DNA of 32,328 nucleotides, taken from Blastocatellia bacterium (GTDB lineage Bacteria > Acidobacteriota > Blastocatellia > HR10 > J050). Positions within the stretch are counted from its first letter, which is position 1; each line of letters begins with the position of its first letter. The DNA is taken from assembly GCA_025054955.1 (NCBI GenBank), contig JANWZE010000118.1:1-32328 (forward strand), in the 5' to 3' direction. Position numbers and translations under genes: made by a program. Of the stretch, positions 6,206-26,015 are shown piece after piece. The notes below the pieces were generated by a model. That model searched no databases. It saw nothing but the letters and a program-made list of their open reading frames with translations, and was not told the DNA's origin.

Positions 6206-8188
6206 TCACCAATGAATGCCCCGTGTCAGTTGGACAAAGGCGATCTGCTCAGGCGTTAATTCGATTTCGCCATCGGTTCGCCCTTGCGCCGCCGCTGATT
6301 CAGGGAACATACGGAACGCGGTGTTGAGAATGATATGTCCGACTTTCGGCGCAATCGCGTTGACCACTTGCGCAAAGATGCCCAGCCGGGTCGTGATCCG
6401 CACCGGCTTGTAGATGATCGCTTGAGCGACCATGTCAGCAGCTTCTTCAGGAGAAATGGCCGGCAGTCGGTCATAGAGCTTGGTCGGCGCAATCATCGGC
6501 GTTCTGACCAGTGGCATGTGAATCGTGGTAAAGCTGATGCCATTGTCGGCAAATTCGGACGCAGCGCAACGGGAAAAGGCATCCAGCGCGGCTTTCGAGG
6601 CGACGTAGGCAGAAAAGCGCGGCGGATTGGCCAGCACGCCAAGCGTCGAAATGTTGATGATATGCCCGCGATGCTGACGAACCATGCTGGGTAAAAAACC
6701 GAGAATCAGTCGGAGCGAGCCGAAATAATTGAGCTGCATCGTGCGCTGAAAGTCGTGAAAGCGATCATACGAAGCGGCAATGGCGCGACGAATCGAGCGC
6801 CCAGCGTTGTTAATCAGAATGTCCACGCTGCCGTGCTCCTGCAGCACACGATTGATCATCACATCGCAGGCGGCCAGGTCGGTCAGGTCACATGGATAGA
6901 CGAACGCCGTGCCTCCGCGGGCTTCAATCAGTTGTTTCGTCTCGAGCAGTTTATCTTCGCTGCGCGCCACCAGAATGACGCGGGCGCCCGCTTCGCCTAA
7001 TTTCAGCGCCGTGGCGCGGCCAATGCCCGAAGACGCGCCGGTGACCACGACGACGCGATCGCGCACCTGACCACTCAGGCTGCGGTCAATGAACAGGTCA
7101 GGGTCAAGATGTCGTTCCCAGTAATCCCACAGCCGATGGGCATAACTCTCCAGCGGCGGCGCGACGAGCCCTGTGCCGCGCAGCGCGCGGTCAGCTTCGC
7201 GGCTATCGAATCGCGTCGGGTAGTTCAGATAGCGAAGTATCTGGCGCGGAATGCCCAAGTCTGAAAGCACCTGCTGCGTGATCCGGCGCACCGGCGCCAG
7301 CGACCCCAACCCATCAATCACCGCCGACGGAATGAAACTGAACATGCGCGCATTCACCCGCAACGTCATCTGCGGCGCATGGGCAGCCCGCGCAAACACG
7401 TTCAGGACTTCGCCAACGCGCAGCGGATGATGATCCACCAGATGAAAACATTTGCCATCTTCGCCGCGCTTGTGCGCAATGTGATCAATCGCGCCAGCGA
7501 CGAAATCCACCGGCACGATGTTGATTCGGCCGCCTTCAATGCCAATCATCGGCATCCACGCTGGCAGCAACGCGCGCAGCTTTTGAATCAGCTTGAAGAA
7601 GTAGTACGGCCCATCAATTTTATCCATCTCGCCGGTTTGCGAGTGGCCGACGACCATGCCGGGCCGATAAATTCGCCAAGGCCGCTTCAAAGTTTGCCGC
7701 ACCAGCTTCTCGCTCTCGTGTTTGGTGCGGAAATAGGGATGATCTAGGCCCTCGGCTTCTTCAAACATGTCTTCGCGGAACACGCCTTCATAGAGTCCGG
7801 CCACAGCAATCGAGCTGATATGATGGAAGCACCCCACCTGGAGGGCTTCGGCCAGTTCAATGGCGTGGCGTGTGCCCTCAACGTTGGCAACACGTTGACG
7901 CTCGGCGTCAGCAGCGAAATCATACACAGCAGCCAGATGAAACATGTGTTTGATCTTGCCGCGCAGCTTGTTGATTTGGGCTTGCGAAAGGCCAAGGTGG
8001 GGTTTCTCCAAATCGCCGATGATGGCCACAACGCGGCGACGATCAACACCCCAGCGCCGACGCAATCCATCCAACTTATCAAGCGACTGCTGCCGCACCA
8101 GTGCGTAGACCGTGCCGTTGCGCTCCAGTAACCGTTGCACCAGATGCCGCCCGATGAACCCCGTTGCGCCGGTAATGAAATAGCTCAT
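6206..8188 (-). CDS. Fused two-domain fatty acyl-CoA reductase (tandem SDR)
   Basis: 660 aa from the ATG at 8188, which has AGGAGG 8 nt upstream. An ATG 36 nt further upstream abuts its own AGGAGG and is unlikely. Residues 1-360 form an extended SDR of the male-sterility/NAD_binding_4 type (GATGFIG at 7-13, Y152xxxK156). Residues about 375-620 form a classical SDR (TGASSGIG 383-390, NNAG 460-463, S514, Y528xxxK532). This order and length match the bacterial fused acyl-CoA reductases such as mycobacterial AcrA1 and Marinobacter FAR. In those the C-terminal Acr1-like half makes the aldehyde and the N-terminal half reduces it to fatty alcohol, using NADPH. Both nucleotide sites and both catalytic Tyr/Lys pairs are intact. 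It sits between the TMTC-like gene and the beta-lactamase-like gene in one transcription unit. Confidence 0.85.
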   Translation of the reverse strand: MSYFITGATGFIGRHLVQRLLERNGTVYALVRQQSLDKLDGLRRRWGVDRRRVVAIIGDLEKPHLGLSQAQINKLRGKIKHMFHLAAVYDFAADAERQRVANVEGTRHAIELAEALQVGCFHHISSIAVAGLYEGVFREDMFEEAEGLDHPYFRTKHESEKLVRQTLKRPWRIYRPGMVVGHSQTGEMDKIDGPYYFFKLIQKLRALLPAWMPMIGIEGGRINIVPVDFVAGAIDHIAHKRGEDGKCFHLVDHHPLRVGEVLNVFARAAHAPQMTLRVNARMFSFIPSAVIDGLGSLAPVRRITQQVLSDLGIPRQILRYLNYPTRFDSREADRALRGTGLVAPPLESYAHRLWDYWERHLDPDLFIDRSLSGQVRDRVVVVTGASSGIGRATALKLGEAGARVILVARSEDKLLETKQLIEARGGTAFVYPCDLTDLAACDVMINRVLQEHGSVDILINNAGRSIRRAIAASYDRFHDFQRTMQLNYFGSLRLILGFLPSMVRQHRGHIINISTLGVLANPPRFSAYVASKAALDAFSRCAASEFADNGISFTTIHMPLVRTPMIAPTKLYDRLPAISPEEAADMVAQAIIYKPVRITTRLGIFAQVVNAIAPKVGHIILNTAFRMFPESAAAQGRTDGEIELTPEQIAFVQLTRGIHW

Positions 8189-8229
8189 GCACGAATCCTC
8201 CTGTGATCTGGAAAGCTTGGTCATCCTCC

Positions 8230-12072: not shown

Positions 12073-12897
12073 TCATGGCTTTGGCACGACTTCAATCTCG
12101 AAGACCTTGGGCCAGAGTTTGCCGGTCACGAACAGCCGGTCTTTCTCAGCGTCATAAGCAATGCCGTTGAGAATATCTGCGCCCTGGCTGATCTCCTCAG
12201 GCGTCAACAACCCAGACAGATCAATCCAACTGAGCACCTGACCCGTTTCCGGCGAAATCCGCGCAATCCGGTCCGGTGGAAAGCCCGACCCATACCAGAG
12301 GTTGGCGTAGATCTCGCCCTTGATGTACTCCAGTTCGTTCAGGGTGGGAACCGGTTTGTCTCCCTCGCGGACTTGAAGCCGGCCAATGCGCTGGAAAGTC
12401 TCAGGATGGAGAAAATAAAGAACCGAACTTCCATCGCTCATGATGAGGCGTCGCCCGTCGTGTGTGATGCCCCATCCTTCCGTCGTGTAGGAGAACTCGC
12501 GGAGTTGGGTGAACGTCTCCTTGTCATAGACGAATCCCACGCGGTTGAGCCAGGTTAATTGAATCAACTGATTCCGCCAGAGCGTGAGCCCTTCGCCGAA
12601 GTACTGATCGGCAAGCTGCCGGATTTGCAGCACCCGTCCCGTCTCAACTTCCACCTTGCGCAACGACGAGCGGCCGTTCAAGCCGGTGCTCTCGTAGAAA
12701 AAACCGCTATCGTAAATCAGCCCTTGCGTGAACGCCTGCTTGTCGTGTGGATACGTGTTGATGATCTTGTATCCATAAACCGGTGGCTGCGCCACACGAG
12801 CGGCGACCTCCGTCGGTTGATTGAACCAGTTGGTGAAAAACAGCGCCCCGACCACGACAGCCACCTGGCCAACAAGCATCACCAGCATTCGATTCAT
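12073..12897 (-). CDS. Plant-type glutaminyl-peptide cyclotransferase, membrane-anchored or secreted
   Basis: 274 aa from the ATG at 12897; longer in-frame starts would overlap the peroxiredoxin gene. Nearby ATGs at 12906 and 12888 are also possible, with GAGG/AGGG close upstream. A hydrophobic segment (about 4-23) is a signal peptide or anchor. The rest matches the Glu_cyclase_2 family: YPHDKQAFTQGL (about 49-60), YESTGLNGRSSLRKV, YFGEGLT, LNELEYIKGEIYANLW and LNGIAYD, repeated beta-propeller blades. Members convert N-terminal Gln to pyroglutamate on exported proteins, without the zinc of the animal enzymes. It lies 83 bp after the peroxiredoxin gene. Confidence 0.85.
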   Translation of the reverse strand: MNRMLVMLVGQVAVVVGALFFTNWFNQPTEVAARVAQPPVYGYKIINTYPHDKQAFTQGLIYDSGFFYESTGLNGRSSLRKVEVETGRVLQIRQLADQYFGEGLTLWRNQLIQLTWLNRVGFVYDKETFTQLREFSYTTEGWGITHDGRRLIMSDGSSVLYFLHPETFQRIGRLQVREGDKPVPTLNELEYIKGEIYANLWYGSGFPPDRIARISPETGQVLSWIDLSGLLTPEEISQGADILNGIAYDAEKDRLFVTGKLWPKVFEIEVVPKP

Positions 12898-12980
12898 ATC
12901 CCTCATCCTCGTCGTGATGTTCCAGGCCAAAGGACAGCTCGACAACTTGCCGGCTGCCTCTGGCCTGACGTCCGAGTCTT

Positions 12981-13637
12981 TCACCCGACAGCCTTCTTGG
13001 AGAAGTACCAATCGGTCACTTTGTACTCAGGATTGTTGACCCGCGCTTCGGCATCTTGCATCGTGACCGGGGGCGGCACAATGACCTCTTGCCCCGGTGT
13101 CCAGTTGGCCGGACAAGCGACACCGTATTTGTCAACCGTTTGCAGCGCATCCACCACGCGGGTGATTTCATCGAAGTTGCGCCCTACGTTGAGCGGATAG
13201 TAAATCATCGCCCGCAAGGTACGCTTCGGATCAATGAAGAACACGCAGCGAACGGTCGCCGTTACGGCGCTCGGCTCATGGACCATGCCATACAACCGCG
13301 ACACTTTCTGATCCAGGTCAGCAATCACCGGAAATTGAATCTTCACGTTGAAGTGTTGTTCGATGTTACGCACCCACGCGATATGACTGTAGACGCTGTC
13401 TATCGAACAGCCCAATAGGGCGACATTCTTGGCTCGCAGATCGTCATATCGCTTGGCAAACTCAACAAACTCGGTGGTACAAACCGGCGTGAAATCCGCC
13501 GGGTGCGAGAACAAGATCACCCACTTATCCTTTTCCCATTCTGACAGCCGAATCGGTCCGTGCGTGGTGGTGGCTTCAAAATCAGGCGCCGGACCGTTCA
13601 GCTCCAATCGTGGTCGTTCTGTTGTTTGGTCACTCAT
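12981..13637 (-). CDS. Peroxiredoxin, Prx6/archaeal-type
   Basis: 218 aa, the length of the Prx6 subgroup. The peroxidatic Cys53 is in SHPADFTPVCTTE, with the conserved Arg130 (TVRCVFFID) that activates it. Additional cysteines are Cys77 (LLGCSID), Cys131 and Cys175 (YGVACPANW). Cys175 replaces a residue that is usually Thr in this motif and might act as a resolving cysteine, so 1-Cys or atypical 2-Cys chemistry are both possible. It reduces hydrogen peroxide, alkyl hydroperoxides or peroxynitrite in the cytoplasm. A strong AGGAGGG site precedes the ATG. It is the first gene of the minus-strand block. Confidence 0.92.
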   Translation of the reverse strand: MSDQTTERPRLELNGPAPDFEATTTHGPIRLSEWEKDKWVILFSHPADFTPVCTTEFVEFAKRYDDLRAKNVALLGCSIDSVYSHIAWVRNIEQHFNVKIQFPVIADLDQKVSRLYGMVHEPSAVTATVRCVFFIDPKRTLRAMIYYPLNVGRNFDEITRVVDALQTVDKYGVACPANWTPGQEVIVPPPVTMQDAEARVNNPEYKVTDWYFSKKAVG

Positions 13638-18973: not shown

Positions 18974-21900
18974 TTATCGAAGGATCACACGGCCTGAGCC
19001 ACAAAGCAACTCGATTTGGCTAATCAATTCCGTTGTCGGTTTGACTTTGACCAAGCTGCTGGGTCGGACCTCAGCTACTGCCTGGCCGTTTAGTTCAACC
19101 TCAAACAGGACGTCACATTCGCCGCGGTAGCGGTCGAGCAATTCGTAGAGCGCCTCAATTTTCGCAGCGTCCATTGCGGCCGACGACATGCGCACGATCA
19201 TCAACCGTGTCTGTTGTTCTTTGAATTGGCTCAACGGGACAATCTCCTCAGCAATTAAGCTTGTGTTGCCCTCCTGCACGTCAGGTCGGGCTTTGACGAT
19301 GACCGTCGCTTCGGGCGCCAGCGCCGGGGCAACGCGGGCGTACACGTCAGGCCAGACGACCACTTTGACCGAGCCCAGTTGGTCTTCGAGGCTGAAGGTA
19401 GCGAAGCGGTCGCCTTTCTTGGTCGCTTTGAACGAGAGGTCGGTGACGATGCCGGCTATGGTGACGCGCGGCGCGTCACGTCGTTGATCGAGCGTTTCCG
19501 TGGTCGCATCGGTGTACGCTGCAATGTCAGCGGCGTACTGATCGAGGGGATGACTGGTGATATAGAAGCCGAGCGTCTCTTTTTCGCCGGCCAGTTGTTC
19601 GCTGTGCGACCAGGCCGGCATCGAGGGTAGCGCCGGCTCCAATGTAGCGCCCACGCTCGCGTCGGCGCTAAACAAGCCGAATTGCCCAGCCGCGCGCTGG
19701 CGTTGCACCCGTCCACCAAATTCGATGGCCTGATCAATCACCGCCATCAACTGCTGACGATGCGCGCCAAGCGAATCAAACGCGCCGGCTTTGATCAGGC
19801 TCTCCAGCACGCGCTTGTTCAGCACTTTTTGATCCACGCGAGCAGCAAAATCGAAGATCGAGCGGAATGGTCCGCCCTGCTGTCGCGCTTGAATGATTTG
19901 CTGAACGGTGGCTTGACCGACGCCCTTAATGGCAGCCAGCCCAAATCGAATCTCCTCACCATGCGGCGTGAAGCCTTCCAGACTCTTGTTCACATCGGGA
20001 GGCAAAATCCTAATCCCTTTGCCGCGCAGGCGGTTGATGTACTTGACGATTTTATCCCGGTTCCCCAGCTCATTGGACATGACGGCAGCATAAAAGTGGG
20101 ACGGGTAATGGGCTTTGAGGTACGCCGTCTGATAGGCGAGCCAGCCGTAGCAGGCTGCGTGGCTCCGATTGAACGCATAATCGGCGAAGCCTTCAAAGCT
20201 GGTCCACAGTTTCTCCAGCTTGCGGCGATCGTGTCCTCTGGCGGCAGCTCGTTGGAGAAATGATTCCTTGTGCTTGTCCAGTTCTTCGCGTTTCTTCTTG
20301 CCCATAGCGCGGCGCACCAGGTCAGCTTCGCCCAGCGAGTAACCGGCCAGCCGCTGGAAGACGGCCATCAGTTGTTCTTGATAGGTCAGGATGCCGAACG
20401 TGCTGCCCATCACTTCCTTCAGTTCAGGAAAATCAAATTTCACTTTGCGACGTCCATGCCGGCGCTCAATGAATTCATCAATCAAGCCGCTATCAATCGG
20501 ACCAGGGCGATATAAGGCGTTCAAGGCAATCAGGTCTTCCAGACTTTCCGGCCGCAGTTGACGACATACTTCCACCATGCCGGAGCTTTCAAACTGGAAG
20601 ATGCCGTCACAATCGCCATCGGCAAACAGTTGCAGCGCCCGCGGGTCATTCAATGGGATTTGGTTCAAATCCACGCGCTGGCCTGTGTCGGCTTCGATCA
20701 TCTTGAGGCAGTCATCAATGATCGTGAGCGTGGTCAGCCCCAGGAAATCCATCTTCAGCATCCCTGTCTTTTCAAGATCATTCAACGCGAACTGGGTTGT
20801 CACTTCATCTTTGGGAGATTTATAAACCGGCACTAAATTGTGGAGCGGTTGAGGCGAGATGACCACGCCGGCTGCATGAATCGAGGCGTGGCGGGCACAG
20901 CCTTCCAGTCGTTTGGCCAGATCAATCAGTTCGGCGACGGTTGGGTTGCTATCAATGGCCTTTTGCAGTTCAGGCACTCGCTTGATGGCTTCATCAATGC
21001 TGACGTTTCGTCCACGTTCAGGCGGCGGAATCAGCCTAGCGATTTTCTCCACGTCAGTATATTTCATGTCGAGCGCGCGACCAACGTCTTTGATCGCCGC
21101 GCGCGAGGCCATTCTGCCGAAGGTGATGATTTGCGAGACATTCTCTCGTCCATATTTTTCGCTGACATAATTGATGACCTCGGCGCGCCCGCGAGCGCAA
21201 AAATCAATGTCAATATCCGGCATGGTGACGCGCTCAGGATTCAAGAATCGCTCAAACAGCAACTCATATTGCAGCGGGTCCAGGTCGGTGATCTTCAAGC
21301 TATAGGCCACTAGCGAGCCGGCTGACGAACCACGGCCTGGTCCAACAGGAATTTGCTTCTCTCTGGCGTACCGGATCAAATCCCAAACGATCAGAAAATA
21401 GCCGGAGAAGCCCATTTGTTTGATGACGTTGATTTCATGATCAAGGCGGGCTTGATAGTCTTCGTAAGCGTACTTGCGATTCGGTTGATGCTGAAGCTGC
21501 TGCCATCGCTCAGCGAAGCCAGCGCGGGCGACCTTCTCGAAATAGCTCTCCGGCGTTTCACCATCCGGCACAGGGAAGACCGGCAGATAGCCAACACCGG
21601 GCGGCTTGGGCAACGTCAGGTTGCACATCTGAGCAATCTCGATCGTGGCCGTCAACGCCTGCGGCACGTCATGCCCAAACAGCTCCCACATTTCCTCCGC
21701 CGTCTTCAAGTAGAACTGGTCAGAATCAAAGCGAAATCGGTCGGGCACATTGATCGTGTCACCCGTTTGAATGCACAGCAAGATGTCATGAGCTTTATGA
21801 TCGGCATGGCGCAAATAATGACAGTCATTGGTCGCCACCAATGGAATGCCGGTCTTCTTGGATAGCTCGATCATCGCCGCGACGACCGGCTCCTGACCCT

Positions 21901-22462
21901 CAACGCCGTGCCGTTGAATTTCGAGGTAGTAATTCCCCTTGCCAACAATGTCCTGAAATTCCATCGCCTCGTGGGCCGCTGCTTCGAATTTCCCTTGCAA
22001 GGCCAGCGCATTGGGCACACCCGACAAGCAACCTGACAGAACGATCAATCCTTCGTGGTACTGGGCCAGGAGCTCCTTATCCAGGCGCGGCTTGTAGTGG
22101 AACCCTTCGAGGTAGGCAAACGAACTCAATTTGACCAAATTCCTATAACCCGTTTCGTCTTTGGCCAGTAGGACAATGTGATGGATGCCCTGCTCGGTGC
22201 CTTTGCGATGACCGCTCACGACCGATTTAGCGAAGCGGCTGCCCAACGTCAGGTAGCCTTCCATGCCGATGATCGGCTTAACGCCAACCTCTTTCATCGC
22301 ATGATAAAACGAGACAGCGCCGAACAAATTGCCATGATCGGTGATGGCCACAGCCGGCATCTTTAACTCAGCAACCCGTTGAGCCAGCGCCGGCACGCGA
22401 ATCGCTCCATCTAGCAAACTGTAATCCGTGTGCAAGTGAAGATGAACAAACTGTTTTGACAT
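18974..22462 (-). CDS. dnaE: DNA polymerase III alpha subunit, DnaE1 type
   Basis: 1162 aa from the ATG at 22462. The frame is open further upstream but a promoter lies inside that extension, so the short start is preferred. The N-terminal PHP domain starts HLHLHTDYSLLDG. Comparing with mycobacterial DnaE1, all nine PHP metal ligands seem present: H9, H11, D18, H43, E68, H95, C145, D213, H215. The palm has VGPGRGSSAGSLVAY (about 373-387) and PDIDIDF (catalytic Asp416/418). Beyond are the fingers, the helix-hairpin-helix and beta-clamp-binding region, an OB-fold domain (about 980-1060) and the C-terminal domain. It is the chromosomal replicase. The upstream NHL-M23 gene ends 147 bp before. Confidence 0.96.
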   Translation of the reverse strand: MSKQFVHLHLHTDYSLLDGAIRVPALAQRVAELKMPAVAITDHGNLFGAVSFYHAMKEVGVKPIIGMEGYLTLGSRFAKSVVSGHRKGTEQGIHHIVLLAKDETGYRNLVKLSSFAYLEGFHYKPRLDKELLAQYHEGLIVLSGCLSGVPNALALQGKFEAAAHEAMEFQDIVGKGNYYLEIQRHGVEGQEPVVAAMIELSKKTGIPLVATNDCHYLRHADHKAHDILLCIQTGDTINVPDRFRFDSDQFYLKTAEEMWELFGHDVPQALTATIEIAQMCNLTLPKPPGVGYLPVFPVPDGETPESYFEKVARAGFAERWQQLQHQPNRKYAYEDYQARLDHEINVIKQMGFSGYFLIVWDLIRYAREKQIPVGPGRGSSAGSLVAYSLKITDLDPLQYELLFERFLNPERVTMPDIDIDFCARGRAEVINYVSEKYGRENVSQIITFGRMASRAAIKDVGRALDMKYTDVEKIARLIPPPERGRNVSIDEAIKRVPELQKAIDSNPTVAELIDLAKRLEGCARHASIHAAGVVISPQPLHNLVPVYKSPKDEVTTQFALNDLEKTGMLKMDFLGLTTLTIIDDCLKMIEADTGQRVDLNQIPLNDPRALQLFADGDCDGIFQFESSGMVEVCRQLRPESLEDLIALNALYRPGPIDSGLIDEFIERRHGRRKVKFDFPELKEVMGSTFGILTYQEQLMAVFQRLAGYSLGEADLVRRAMGKKKREELDKHKESFLQRAAARGHDRRKLEKLWTSFEGFADYAFNRSHAACYGWLAYQTAYLKAHYPSHFYAAVMSNELGNRDKIVKYINRLRGKGIRILPPDVNKSLEGFTPHGEEIRFGLAAIKGVGQATVQQIIQARQQGGPFRSIFDFAARVDQKVLNKRVLESLIKAGAFDSLGAHRQQLMAVIDQAIEFGGRVQRQRAAGQFGLFSADASVGATLEPALPSMPAWSHSEQLAGEKETLGFYITSHPLDQYAADIAAYTDATTETLDQRRDAPRVTIAGIVTDLSFKATKKGDRFATFSLEDQLGSVKVVVWPDVYARVAPALAPEATVIVKARPDVQEGNTSLIAEEIVPLSQFKEQQTRLMIVRMSSAAMDAAKIEALYELLDRYRGECDVLFEVELNGQAVAEVRPSSLVKVKPTTELISQIELLCGSGRVILR

Positions 22463-22495
22463 GAACGTCGCCACCAGATATAGGCTTGGGCACTT

Positions 22496-22525
22496 GTTAT
22501 AGCTCAAAATGTTGTAGCGGGTCAA
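22496..22525 (-). promoter_or_regulatory. Sigma70-type promoter of dnaE
   Basis: On the minus strand TTGACC (22520-22525) and TATAAC (22496-22501) are separated by 18 nt, giving a predicted start near 22489 and a leader of about 27 nt before the dnaE ATG. Confidence 0.6.
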
Positions 22526-22609
22526 ACCATTTGACGGATCGCATCGGCGCGGCTGGTCTGAGCTAAGGCTGCGTCCATCGGTGAAGCGCTCTTGCATCCA
22601 TTAGCGGCT

Positions 22610-24733
22610 TCACTTTGACGGCTCCACCACCACAGGCCATTGCCGCACACATTGATTGCCTGCGTAGTCTTGGACAATGACCTTCAATTGGTACAGTCCC
22701 GGAGCCAGTTGTGATGTTCGCAATACGCCGTCTTGCGCGCGCCCGTCGCGGACGCGGTTGGTCACAATGTAGCGAAATCTGGTTGGCGTGCCATAGGCGC
22801 TCACGCCGCTGCCGGGCGCGTAGACCAGCAACACACTCTCATCATCCGGCGGCAGGCGGTTGAACTGCAGATTGATGAGCGGTTGCTCAAACCCGCTCAG
22901 TGGCGCGCCGGCGTCAGTCAATATCTGGTAGCCAGCCTTATACACACCGAGTTTGCGGTGACGCGCGTTGCCGTCCATGCGATCATAGGCCGTGACGACA
23001 ATATCCACGTCGCCAGAGAGCGCCAGCCGGCCGTCGCGCGTGGCTGTCAACGGCTGCCCGTTGGCGCCGAGCACCTCCAGGCCGTTCGGCTCAATGATAG
23101 GAGCGACGGTGTCTTTTAACGCAATGAACGGAAATTGCAACGGATTGGCCGGCGCGTATCGTGGGCCAAAGCTCAGGTGCAGATGGTAAAGCCGGTTGAT
23201 CGTGCCGATGAGATCGCCAACGTTAAATCGCGTGCCACGGCGCACGCGGACGCCGCTGAGTTGACCAGCTTCATCGAACCGAGGCAAAAACCTAGCAGAG
23301 GAGAGCAGTCGCCCATCAGCGTCGCGTCCGACAAAAATGTGAATGTAGCTCATCAACCCAAGCCGAATGCCTTCGTGACTTTCATCAAAGCCCCACGCCG
23401 GCAGCGGATCGCTCACTTTCTCGTTCAGCACGCAGACAACCGGTTCACCCCAGTTGCCGCGAATGTCCAAACCACTGTGCAGGTGATCGAGCGCCACGTG
23501 ATTGGGCGCGCCACGCGCTTCGCCCATGACGCCTGTGATCTCGTGCCACCGATCGGGCGGATTCAACGGCCAAGGAAACGTCGCGCCGACATTGAGCATG
23601 GCCGCGCTGATGCGAGGCAACACGGCGTCAGTCGGCGCCGCCACCGGTTCCGTCGGCGGCTGAATATAGAGCGGCAGCGCCTCAGTCTGCTCAGCCGTTG
23701 GCGCTACCGGCGTCACTCGTCGGATCACATAATTCTGCGTGTCAGCGACAACAACATGACCTCGACGATCCACAGCACATCCAGTTGGACGGCCAAATCG
23801 CGCTCGCCTGCCTATGCCGTCCGCAAATCCCGCGCGCCCGCCAGCAAACAAATGAACTTCCCCTTCCGGCGTGATGCGATGCACACCCTCGGAATCACTG
23901 ACAAACAAAAATCTATCATGCGTGACGGCAATGCCAATAGGCGCATGCAGCGTGCCGCCAGGCACGATAGTCACGACTTCGCCTTGAAGCGTAATCTTAC
24001 GTATCGCGTCATTACCTGTATCGGCGACAAACACATTGCCTTCGCTATCTACGGCCACACCGCAGGGCGTATCAAACAACGCTGCTGTTGCCGGGCCATC
24101 CTGCAAGCCGGGCCGCCGGGCGCCAGCCAGCGTGCTGACTTGTCCGTCAGGTGAAATCCTTCGAATACAATCATTGTAGCTGTCGGCAACAATGATCGAA
24201 CCGTCGTCACTGACCGCGATGCCGATTGGCCCATCAAATTGCGCCTGGAGCGCCGGGCCATCTCGATGGCCGCGCGCGCCCTGGCCAGCTAGCGTGCTGA
24301 CCTGTCCCTGAGGCGTGAGTCGTCGAATCCGGTTGTTAGCCGTATCAGCGATGAAGATATTCCCGTTGGCGTCCAGCGCAACACCTGACGGCGTATTGAA
24401 CGCCGCGGCCGTGGCCTGACCATCGGCGTATCCTTCACGCGAGCCGGCCAGCGTTTCAACGTGCCCCCGCGGGGTGATGCGTCGGATGCGGTTACTATCG
24501 CCGCCATCGGCGACGATCACGTTGCCATTAGCGTCAATGGCGACGCCAAATGGATCACTGAATCGCGCTGCTGGCGCCGGGCCGTCATCAACACCGCCAA
24601 TCCCATCGCCCGCCAGCGTCGTGACGTGGCCGACTGCTCTCGGATCAGTCGGAACATAGCGGCGGCTGAGCCAATACAGAGCGCCGACTGTCACGAGGAG
24701 CACAATCACCATGACCATGATGTCTTTTTTCAT
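22610..24733 (-). CDS. Membrane-anchored NHL beta-propeller fused to M23-type (LytM) metallopeptidase domain
   Basis: 707 aa from the ATG at 24733; a GTG 18 nt upstream is possible and neither has a clear ribosome site. Residues 4-22 form an N-terminal membrane anchor or signal. Residues about 37-343 hold six repeats of the TLAG-G-x-DG-x-A-x-F-x-P-x-G-A-x-D-x-x-GN-x-VAD-x-x-N-x-IRR-x-TP type, a six-bladed NHL propeller. A Pro-rich linker (345-375) leads to a domain with H419-x3-D423 and H517-L-H519, the zinc-ligand pattern of M23 endopeptidases. The last 150 residues look like an extracellular beta-sandwich. Expected location is the periplasm or cell surface. Function would be peptidoglycan or protein binding and cleavage; whether the M23 part is catalytic is inferred only from motif retention. 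Confidence 0.8.
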   Translation of the reverse strand: MKKDIMVMVIVLLVTVGALYWLSRRYVPTDPRAVGHVTTLAGDGIGGVDDGPAPAARFSDPFGVAIDANGNVIVADGGDSNRIRRITPRGHVETLAGSREGYADGQATAAAFNTPSGVALDANGNIFIADTANNRIRRLTPQGQVSTLAGQGARGHRDGPALQAQFDGPIGIAVSDDGSIIVADSYNDCIRRISPDGQVSTLAGARRPGLQDGPATAALFDTPCGVAVDSEGNVFVADTGNDAIRKITLQGEVVTIVPGGTLHAPIGIAVTHDRFLFVSDSEGVHRITPEGEVHLFAGGRAGFADGIGRRARFGRPTGCAVDRRGHVVVADTQNYVIRRVTPVAPTAEQTEALPLYIQPPTEPVAAPTDAVLPRISAAMLNVGATFPWPLNPPDRWHEITGVMGEARGAPNHVALDHLHSGLDIRGNWGEPVVCVLNEKVSDPLPAWGFDESHEGIRLGLMSYIHIFVGRDADGRLLSSARFLPRFDEAGQLSGVRVRRGTRFNVGDLIGTINRLYHLHLSFGPRYAPANPLQFPFIALKDTVAPIIEPNGLEVLGANGQPLTATRDGRLALSGDVDIVVTAYDRMDGNARHRKLGVYKAGYQILTDAGAPLSGFEQPLINLQFNRLPPDDESVLLVYAPGSGVSAYGTPTRFRYIVTNRVRDGRAQDGVLRTSQLAPGLYQLKVIVQDYAGNQCVRQWPVVVEPSK

Positions 24734-24879
24734 CACGGTTTGTTCTACCACACAGCGTTAACATTGCAAACGCTCGACGAGTATCAACCTTCCTGAAAAA
24801 AATCGGGTATTATGCCCCTGGCTCCTGGCTCTCGACCCATGCTGGCCTTTACGCGGACTATTGGTACTGCAAGCGCCTC

Positions 24880-25938
24880 CTAATCATCCCAGCGGCCGGG
24901 GATCGGCGTATGGCATTTGGGACAAGCGCCAGCCGTGATGTTATTCTGCAAAACGCGAAAACCAACGCGCTCGATCAGCAACGCATGACACTGCGGGCAA
25001 TAGGTATTCTCCAGCGTCCCAAGACGGCCGGGCAAGTTGCCGGCATAAACGTAGCGCAAGCCTTCGTTCTGTCCAATTTCAGCCGCGCGGATCAAGGTGC
25101 TGGCTGGCGTATTGTCGGGATCAGTCATCTTGTAGTCTTTATGAAATGCGGTTACATGCCAGGGAATGTCAGGCGACACAGAGACGATAAATTGGGCTAT
25201 GTCGCGCAGCTCTTCATCGGAATCGTTGTAACCGGGAACGACCAGCGTGACAATCTCCAGCCAGAAGCCGCGCGCATACACCATCTGGATGGTATCCAGG
25301 ACGTTTTGCAGCACACCACCGAGTCGGCGATAACTGCGGTCGCGGAATGCTTTCAGATCAATTTTGTACAAGTCCGTCCATGGACGAATGTAATCGAGGA
25401 CTTCAGGCGTCGCGTTGCCATTGGAGACGTAGCCGGTAATGAAGCCGTGTTCTTTGGCTTGCTTGAAGATGGTCACTGCCCACTCGCTGGTGATGAGCGG
25501 CTCGTTATAGCTACTGACCACCAGCTTGGCTTTGTAGCGCCGAGCTGCTGCGATGATCCGTTCTGGCGTCACCTGCTGAGGCAGGGAGACGGCGCGCGGA
25601 TCACGTAGCGATTGGCTGGTGATCCAATTTTGACAATACGCGCAGTGCAGGTCGCAGCCGAGCATGCCGAATGTCAACGCCAGCGAGCCGGGGTAGACAT
25701 GGAAAAATGGCTTTTTCTCCGTCGGATCGCACGCGATCGTGCCGACGTAACCGGCTGGCACGTACAACACGCCACCCTCGTTGTACCGCACGCGACAGAT
25801 GCCGTCCAGTCCTGGCAAGATCACACAACGATGACCGCAGGCGTAGCAACGCACTTTTTGATCGGGGAGCTTTTCGTAAAGTTCGCCCTCGCGAGCGAAA
25901 GTCTTTAAGACATCCTTCAGCGTCATCGTCTCGGCCAT
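24880..25938 (-). CDS. amrS: AmmeMemoRadiSam system radical SAM enzyme
   Basis: 352 aa from the ATG at 25938, which has GGAG 8 nt upstream; an ATG 15 nt earlier has none. The radical SAM cluster is C95-DLH-C99-AY-C102. Before it are four cysteines (C31, C34, C38, C48) in CYACGHRCVILPGLDGICRV, and after it YNEPLI, LYKIDLKAF and VPGYNDSDEEL, which match the AmrS/PflA-like family. Two CxxC pairs at the C-terminus (YCPQCH, CPKCHTP) suggest a rubredoxin-like metal site. Family members usually lie beside AMMECR1 and Memo genes, but neither is in this window. The reaction is not established from sequence. The pcrA gene is divergent. Confidence 0.9.
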   Translation of the reverse strand: MAETMTLKDVLKTFAREGELYEKLPDQKVRCYACGHRCVILPGLDGICRVRYNEGGVLYVPAGYVGTIACDPTEKKPFFHVYPGSLALTFGMLGCDLHCAYCQNWITSQSLRDPRAVSLPQQVTPERIIAAARRYKAKLVVSSYNEPLITSEWAVTIFKQAKEHGFITGYVSNGNATPEVLDYIRPWTDLYKIDLKAFRDRSYRRLGGVLQNVLDTIQMVYARGFWLEIVTLVVPGYNDSDEELRDIAQFIVSVSPDIPWHVTAFHKDYKMTDPDNTPASTLIRAAEIGQNEGLRYVYAGNLPGRLGTLENTYCPQCHALLIERVGFRVLQNNITAGACPKCHTPIPGRWDD

Positions 25939-26015
25939 GATGGTTGCTCCCATGTTCGTAGCTAATTATCTTCTGCGCTGGCCGGTGACGCAATCCTCAT
26001 TTTGTCAATGACCGA

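Follow-up and report, generated by a model that had tools for sequence, protein, structure and literature searches.

We describe a conserved bacterial architecture in which an anchored, six-bladed NHL beta-propeller is followed by a predicted, very divergent metallopeptidase domain of the M23/LytM fold; the two domains are well known, and their combination is apparently undescribed. Its representative here is encoded in a Blastocatellia bacterium, in the window (the whole stretch of 32,328 nucleotides that was analysed). Our findings favour, with a probability of roughly two in three, a model where the protein is an exported, membrane-tethered M23/LytM-fold zinc metallopeptidase that docks through its propeller and cleaves a peptide bond, the likeliest target being peptidoglycan. 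The architecture, the predicted fold, the residue conservation and the export/anchor signal form the observed part of this best explanation. The gene and its parts are as follows.

22610-24733, minus strand: complete gene, encoding 707 aa with anchor, NHL propeller, predicted M23-fold metallopeptidase domain and beta-sandwich (ORF and translation; full-length relatives in the same class)
24665-24730, minus strand: N-terminal hydrophobic anchor, residues 2-23 (helix in the AlphaFold model; hydrophobic segment in 72 of 74 sequences)
23696-24634, minus strand: six-bladed NHL beta-propeller, residues 34-346 (Pfam NHL; VIA Z up to 42 against known NHL structures)
23111-23593, minus strand: predicted M23/LytM-fold peptidase domain, residues 381-541 (structural matches to EnvC and ShyA; hhalign)
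23477-23479, minus strand: H419, predicted zinc ligand of Hx3D (invariant, 81/81)
23465-23467, minus strand: D423, predicted zinc ligand of Hx3D (invariant, 81/81)
23339-23341, minus strand: H465 of Y463-x-H465, predicted water-activating third histidine (invariant, 81/81; role by analogy with the canonical M23 Y-x-H)
23183-23185, minus strand: H517, first His of HxH, predicted catalytic base (invariant, 81/81)
23177-23179, minus strand: H519, second His of HxH, predicted zinc ligand (invariant, 81/81)
22613-23110, minus strand: residues 542-707, a beta-sandwich at the C-terminus that is Ig-like or of Wzt type (VIA Z about 7-8 against the carbohydrate-binding domains of Wzt and domains of ribophorin type)

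The reading frame, with its stop codon included in 22610-24733, starts at an ATG; an alternative GTG start at 24751, upstream of the ATG, would give 713 aa. Scans for promoters and terminators around the gene returned nothing above chance. An earlier note on this DNA had proposed a membrane anchor, six NHL repeats and a domain with H419-x3-D423 and H517-x-H519, and this outline holds: the residue numbering is exact when checked against the translation, Pfam finds six NHL stretches (E 1.4e-30; 104 bits, the cut-off being 20), and the anchor appears both as a helix at residues 2-23 in the AlphaFold model and as a strongly hydrophobic 17-residue window. The model of the whole 707-aa protein, built with 26 sequences (mean pLDDT 92, pTM 0.89), places after this helix the propeller (about 34-346), a badly ordered linker (about 350-380) and then two beta-rich domains. 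Two features add to the earlier outline, namely an invariant Y463-x-H465, which resembles the third histidine motif of M23, and a distinct beta-sandwich C-terminal to the M23 fold. The layout is beyond chance, as 25 relatives at 34-59% identity retain the entire architecture and all the named residues.

The assignment of the second half to M23 comes from fold and profile comparisons. A Foldseek search with the full model was filled by propellers and teneurins, and residues 381-707 were therefore modelled on their own (pLDDT 89.8). With this C-terminal half, Foldseek alone gave nothing below 0.001 and a mixture of RhoGDI and M23 matches, which VIA re-alignment told apart: the top 37 entries are all M23/LytM proteins (Z 12.0 to 8.5), including EnvC (12.0), ShyA (11.7), Csd3 (11.6), lysostaphin (10.8) and LytM (10.2). 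Nearly all of these matches cover model residues 1-159, that is, residues 381-539 of the protein, and the superposition on EnvC extends across 117 residues at 3.0 A. Thus, the M23-like fold that had been anticipated from the zinc-ligand pattern is borne out by the prediction. The remaining residues (542-707) resemble Wzt- and ribophorin-type beta-sandwiches at scores too low to fix a family. Scanning the whole protein, Pfam recognises the propeller and no peptidase, and NCBIfam returns no M23, with families below cut-off only; the Pfam M23 model itself reaches 15.4 bits against a cut-off of 28.7, the best E value among the 26 sequences being 0.0036. This cut-off is a detection threshold, not a defining feature of the family, and the absence of an M23 domain implied by these scans is overruled by the profile and fold comparisons. 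When the family profile was aligned by hhalign to a canonical M23 profile (29 domains from related genomes of the same class, two of them from the window's genome), a probability of 96.5 was obtained (E 8.9e-10) with a score of 61.9, compared with at most 21.5 for 100 column-shuffled targets, and both H419/D423 and H517/H519 fell on the canonical motifs. Among PDB sequences, hmmsearch with the family profile found a sole, weak M23 match (9gy1, E 0.078) amid unrelated ones. Both the modelled structure and the profiles thus identify the second half as a predicted M23/LytM-fold domain of very divergent sequence.

The first half belongs to a well-known type of module. Its tandem NHL repeats close a six-bladed propeller, as judged from Pfam and from VIA comparison with known structures (SOQ1, Z 42; PknD, Z 33). 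Near-invariant residues lie on blades 2-4 (P115, S116, D184, Y186, N187, D188, T255 and P265) and mark a candidate docking face or enzyme interface. On blade 3, the D-x-Y-N-D stretch at residues 184-188 (window 24170-24184), near-invariant in the family, is a candidate docking site. Two named propeller proteins were considered and discarded on NCBIfam scores, ScyF (90 bits where 350 are required) and the streptogramin lyase VgbA (34.5 bits where 600 are required). A phage or plasmid origin was likewise rejected, the matches being at the level of the propeller and none spanning 80% of the protein. Two unannotated faecal phage records, MT837514.1 and MT835956.1, carry several NHL-like stretches with 27-28% identity to the propeller.

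With regard to location, an N-terminal hydrophobic segment is present in 72 of the 74 usable sequences, and a lipobox-like sequence occurs in at least 20. The mean charge flanking the segment is +2.4 on its N side against +0.8 on the other; the window protein's own anchor (+1 against +2) is ambiguous for orientation. Together, the hydrophobic segments, lipoboxes and N-side charge make a tethered location in the envelope likely, and relatives that share the propeller carry a transmembrane or lipoprotein anchor. We propose that the N-terminal segment would keep the protein at the outer face of the cytoplasmic membrane, relatives with a lipobox being held on a membrane as lipoproteins, and that the rigid propeller would dock a ligand or partner. 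Zinc would be held by H419, D423 and H519, and water would be activated by H517, probably together with H465. The bond cut would most likely lie in a stem or cross-bridge peptide of periplasmic peptidoglycan, or alternatively in exported proteins, while the C-terminal beta-sandwich may pack against the M23 domain as an accessory or binding module.

What the putative enzyme would cut is the point on which the gene neighbourhood bears. In the window, a radical SAM gene (24880-25953) lies upstream and dnaE (18974-22597, minus strand) directly follows, in accordance with the adjacency described earlier. Neither of these, nor a helicase gene, recurs beside the NHL-M23 gene in relatives, and the dnaE neighbourhood hence carries no functional message. 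In Pyrinomonadaceae, on the other hand, the downstream neighbour on the same strand is often a signal-peptide-bearing Xaa-Pro aminopeptidase P (Pfam AMP_N and Peptidase_M24), whose start overlaps the NHL-M23 stop by 4 bases in several loci; L114:10939-12648 (plus strand) and its equivalents are such exported aminopeptidases 3' of the gene. A member of this ORF cluster occurs in 32 loci, mostly downstream on the same strand. The opposite side is occupied by a DUF937 protein and, in some loci, by an exported aminopeptidase that appears from its sequence to be of M1 type. This pairing, the sole context clue to function, points to peptide processing in Pyrinomonadaceae. An exported aminopeptidase next door leaves a peptide or protein substrate possible in place of peptidoglycan, and one may envisage an active M23-fold protease working on exported proteins or scavenged peptides, with the propeller selecting or holding the substrate and the exported Xaa-Pro aminopeptidase finishing the products. 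The same-strand neighbour with its start-stop overlaps, the recurrence of its cluster and the putative M1-type enzyme upstream would all suit such a pathway, and within that lineage the pairing fits a peptide or protein substrate no worse than it fits peptidoglycan. Yet only one lineage shows the pairing, which is absent from the window genome (whose closest match to the Pyrinomonadaceae aminopeptidase P is 34% identical), the other examined Blastocatellia and Oxalobacteraceae, and the majority of characterised M23 enzymes target peptidoglycan (PMC9662197). We thus regard this alternative as a rather unlikely one. Equally tentative is a broader proposal, in which these proteins would constitute a separate envelope metallopeptidase family, spread between Acidobacteriota and Proteobacteria, whose NHL propeller senses or captures a specific exported ligand and either delivers it to the divergent M23 site or gates that site, the enzyme being a regulated protease of proteins or peptides and not a cell-wall hydrolase.

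The favoured model, a peptidoglycan-directed metallopeptidase, is in keeping with an apparently intact active site. In the M23 family, defined by Hx3D and HxH, an additional histidine lies upstream of HxH (PMC9662197). H419, D423, H517 and H519, named earlier as the likely zinc-ligand pattern, are invariant in 26/26 sequences of the whole-protein search and in 81/81 of the loci set, and so is H465. The larger set consists of the window together with 80 loci of named genomes, and it shares some genomes with the smaller; as some of its members were retrieved by a pattern containing HVH, 26/26 is the unbiased figure for HxH. The second half of the query contains nine histidines, of which only H419, H465, H517 and H519 are invariant, and as judged from the alignments these are the histidines that an M23 enzyme should possess (PMC9662197). 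The distance from H465 to HxH is 52 residues, against about 30 in LytM, having been enlarged by an insertion, and hhalign does not pair H465 with the histidine of canonical M23 enzymes. The oxyanion-stabilising tyrosine of LytM, Tyr204, lies 6 residues before the first ligand; that position is a valine here (V413), and another residue may replace its function. With these five residues all kept, the family is apparently a catalytically intact, divergent branch of M23 and not an EnvC-like pseudoenzyme. A protein acting as a non-catalytic LytM regulator of another cell-wall enzyme, after the manner of EnvC or NlpD and with the propeller as interaction module, would account for EnvC being the top structural match and for a membrane tether combined with a propeller of protein-binding type; however, EnvC leads the catalytic ShyA and Csd3 by less than 1 Z unit, which amounts to a tie, and whereas degenerate LytM proteins have lost catalytic residues (PMC9662197), conservation here is complete (81/81) for the ligands and for the two histidines that are candidates for catalysis, making such a role improbable. 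More improbable still is a signalling propeller protein whose M23-like domain is a structural or sensory zinc-binding domain without hydrolysis, as the distance in sequence from canonical M23 enzymes, the inserted hairpin that separates Y-x-H from V-x-x-G and the missing tyrosine at the LytM Tyr204 spacing could suggest, since it would not need the non-ligand H465 and H517, both conserved in every relative.

Several known systems share features with this putative metallopeptidase. With M23B/LytM endopeptidases (LytM, lysostaphin, ShyA, Csd3, NMB0315) it has in common the fold over residues 381-539, Hx3D, HxH, a Y-x-H motif upstream of it (at a wider spacing here) and a conserved Asn after HxH (N530 here); it differs in falling below the Pfam threshold, in the insertion of about 20-30 residues between Y-x-H and V-x-x-G, and in its NHL propeller and beta-sandwich, where those enzymes carry LysM, SH3b, OapA or Csd3-type domains (PMC9662197). 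EnvC and NlpD resemble it in structure and envelope location, yet they are degenerate whereas all five predicted active-site residues are present here. The six-bladed NHL propeller is shared with the extracellular sensor of PknD, the NHL domains of Thin and TRIM proteins, and SOQ1/NHLRC2, which carry a kinase, RING/TRIM or thioredoxin-like partner instead of a metallopeptidase. A review of M23 counts more than 1,000 architectures, chiefly single domains and combinations with LysM, Csd3-like, OapA, G5 and SH3b domains, and its text mentions neither NHL nor propeller (PMC9662197); our full-text search of open-licence articles found no paper on the combination.

M23 enzymes remodel the bacterial cell wall, and some serve as antibacterials. 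Given that the Pfam model misses this branch at its cut-off, the genomes that carry it are probably annotated with just an 'NHL repeat protein'. The family is consistent and nearly always present in one copy per genome, including in cultured Massilia, Undibacterium, Pseudoduganella and Sphingomonas, and both gene deletion and enzyme assays are therefore within reach. Control of the active site by the propeller, if it occurs, would be a new mode of regulating a cell-wall or envelope protease.

Many soil Acidobacteriota and some Proteobacteria have this combination in conserved form. It was found in 38 of 396 genomes sampled across Acidobacteriota, 32 of them being the window's own or from its class, and in 42 of 195 genomes from the family of Undibacterium terreum; the 81 sequences span two phyla, in Blastocatellia, Oxalobacteraceae and sphingomonads. 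The propeller profile matches 80 of the 81, the exception being a fragment at a contig edge, and the propeller is present in relatives whose contig extends far enough upstream. In a quick tree with two main groups, the Pseudomonadota form a supported set inside the group to which the window and other Blastocatellia belong, a nesting that hints at transfer between phyla. No NHL-M23 gene turned up in the genomes sampled from the family and order to which the window belongs, and the window genome may thus have gained it, or its surroundings may have lost it. A shorter acidobacterial protein (L159, minus-strand ORF, 396 aa) has a lipoprotein-like signal and, like the NHL-M23 family, an M23 domain followed by a beta-sandwich, with HLGMD, YWH and HHLH motifs (Pfam M23 19.5 bits, E 0.0011), but no propeller. 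The M23-sandwich unit can thus stand alone, and the propeller probably either became attached to an older, pre-existing unit of this kind or disappeared from it.

Two further genes of the window deserve mention. At 12073-13011 (minus strand) lies a glutamine cyclotransferase (Pfam Glu_cyclase_2, E 3.7e-97) with an N-terminal hydrophobic stretch, a second propeller-type enzyme that is probably exported, and at 6206-8224 (minus strand) a male-sterility/acyl-reductase-type domain is fused to a short-chain dehydrogenase.
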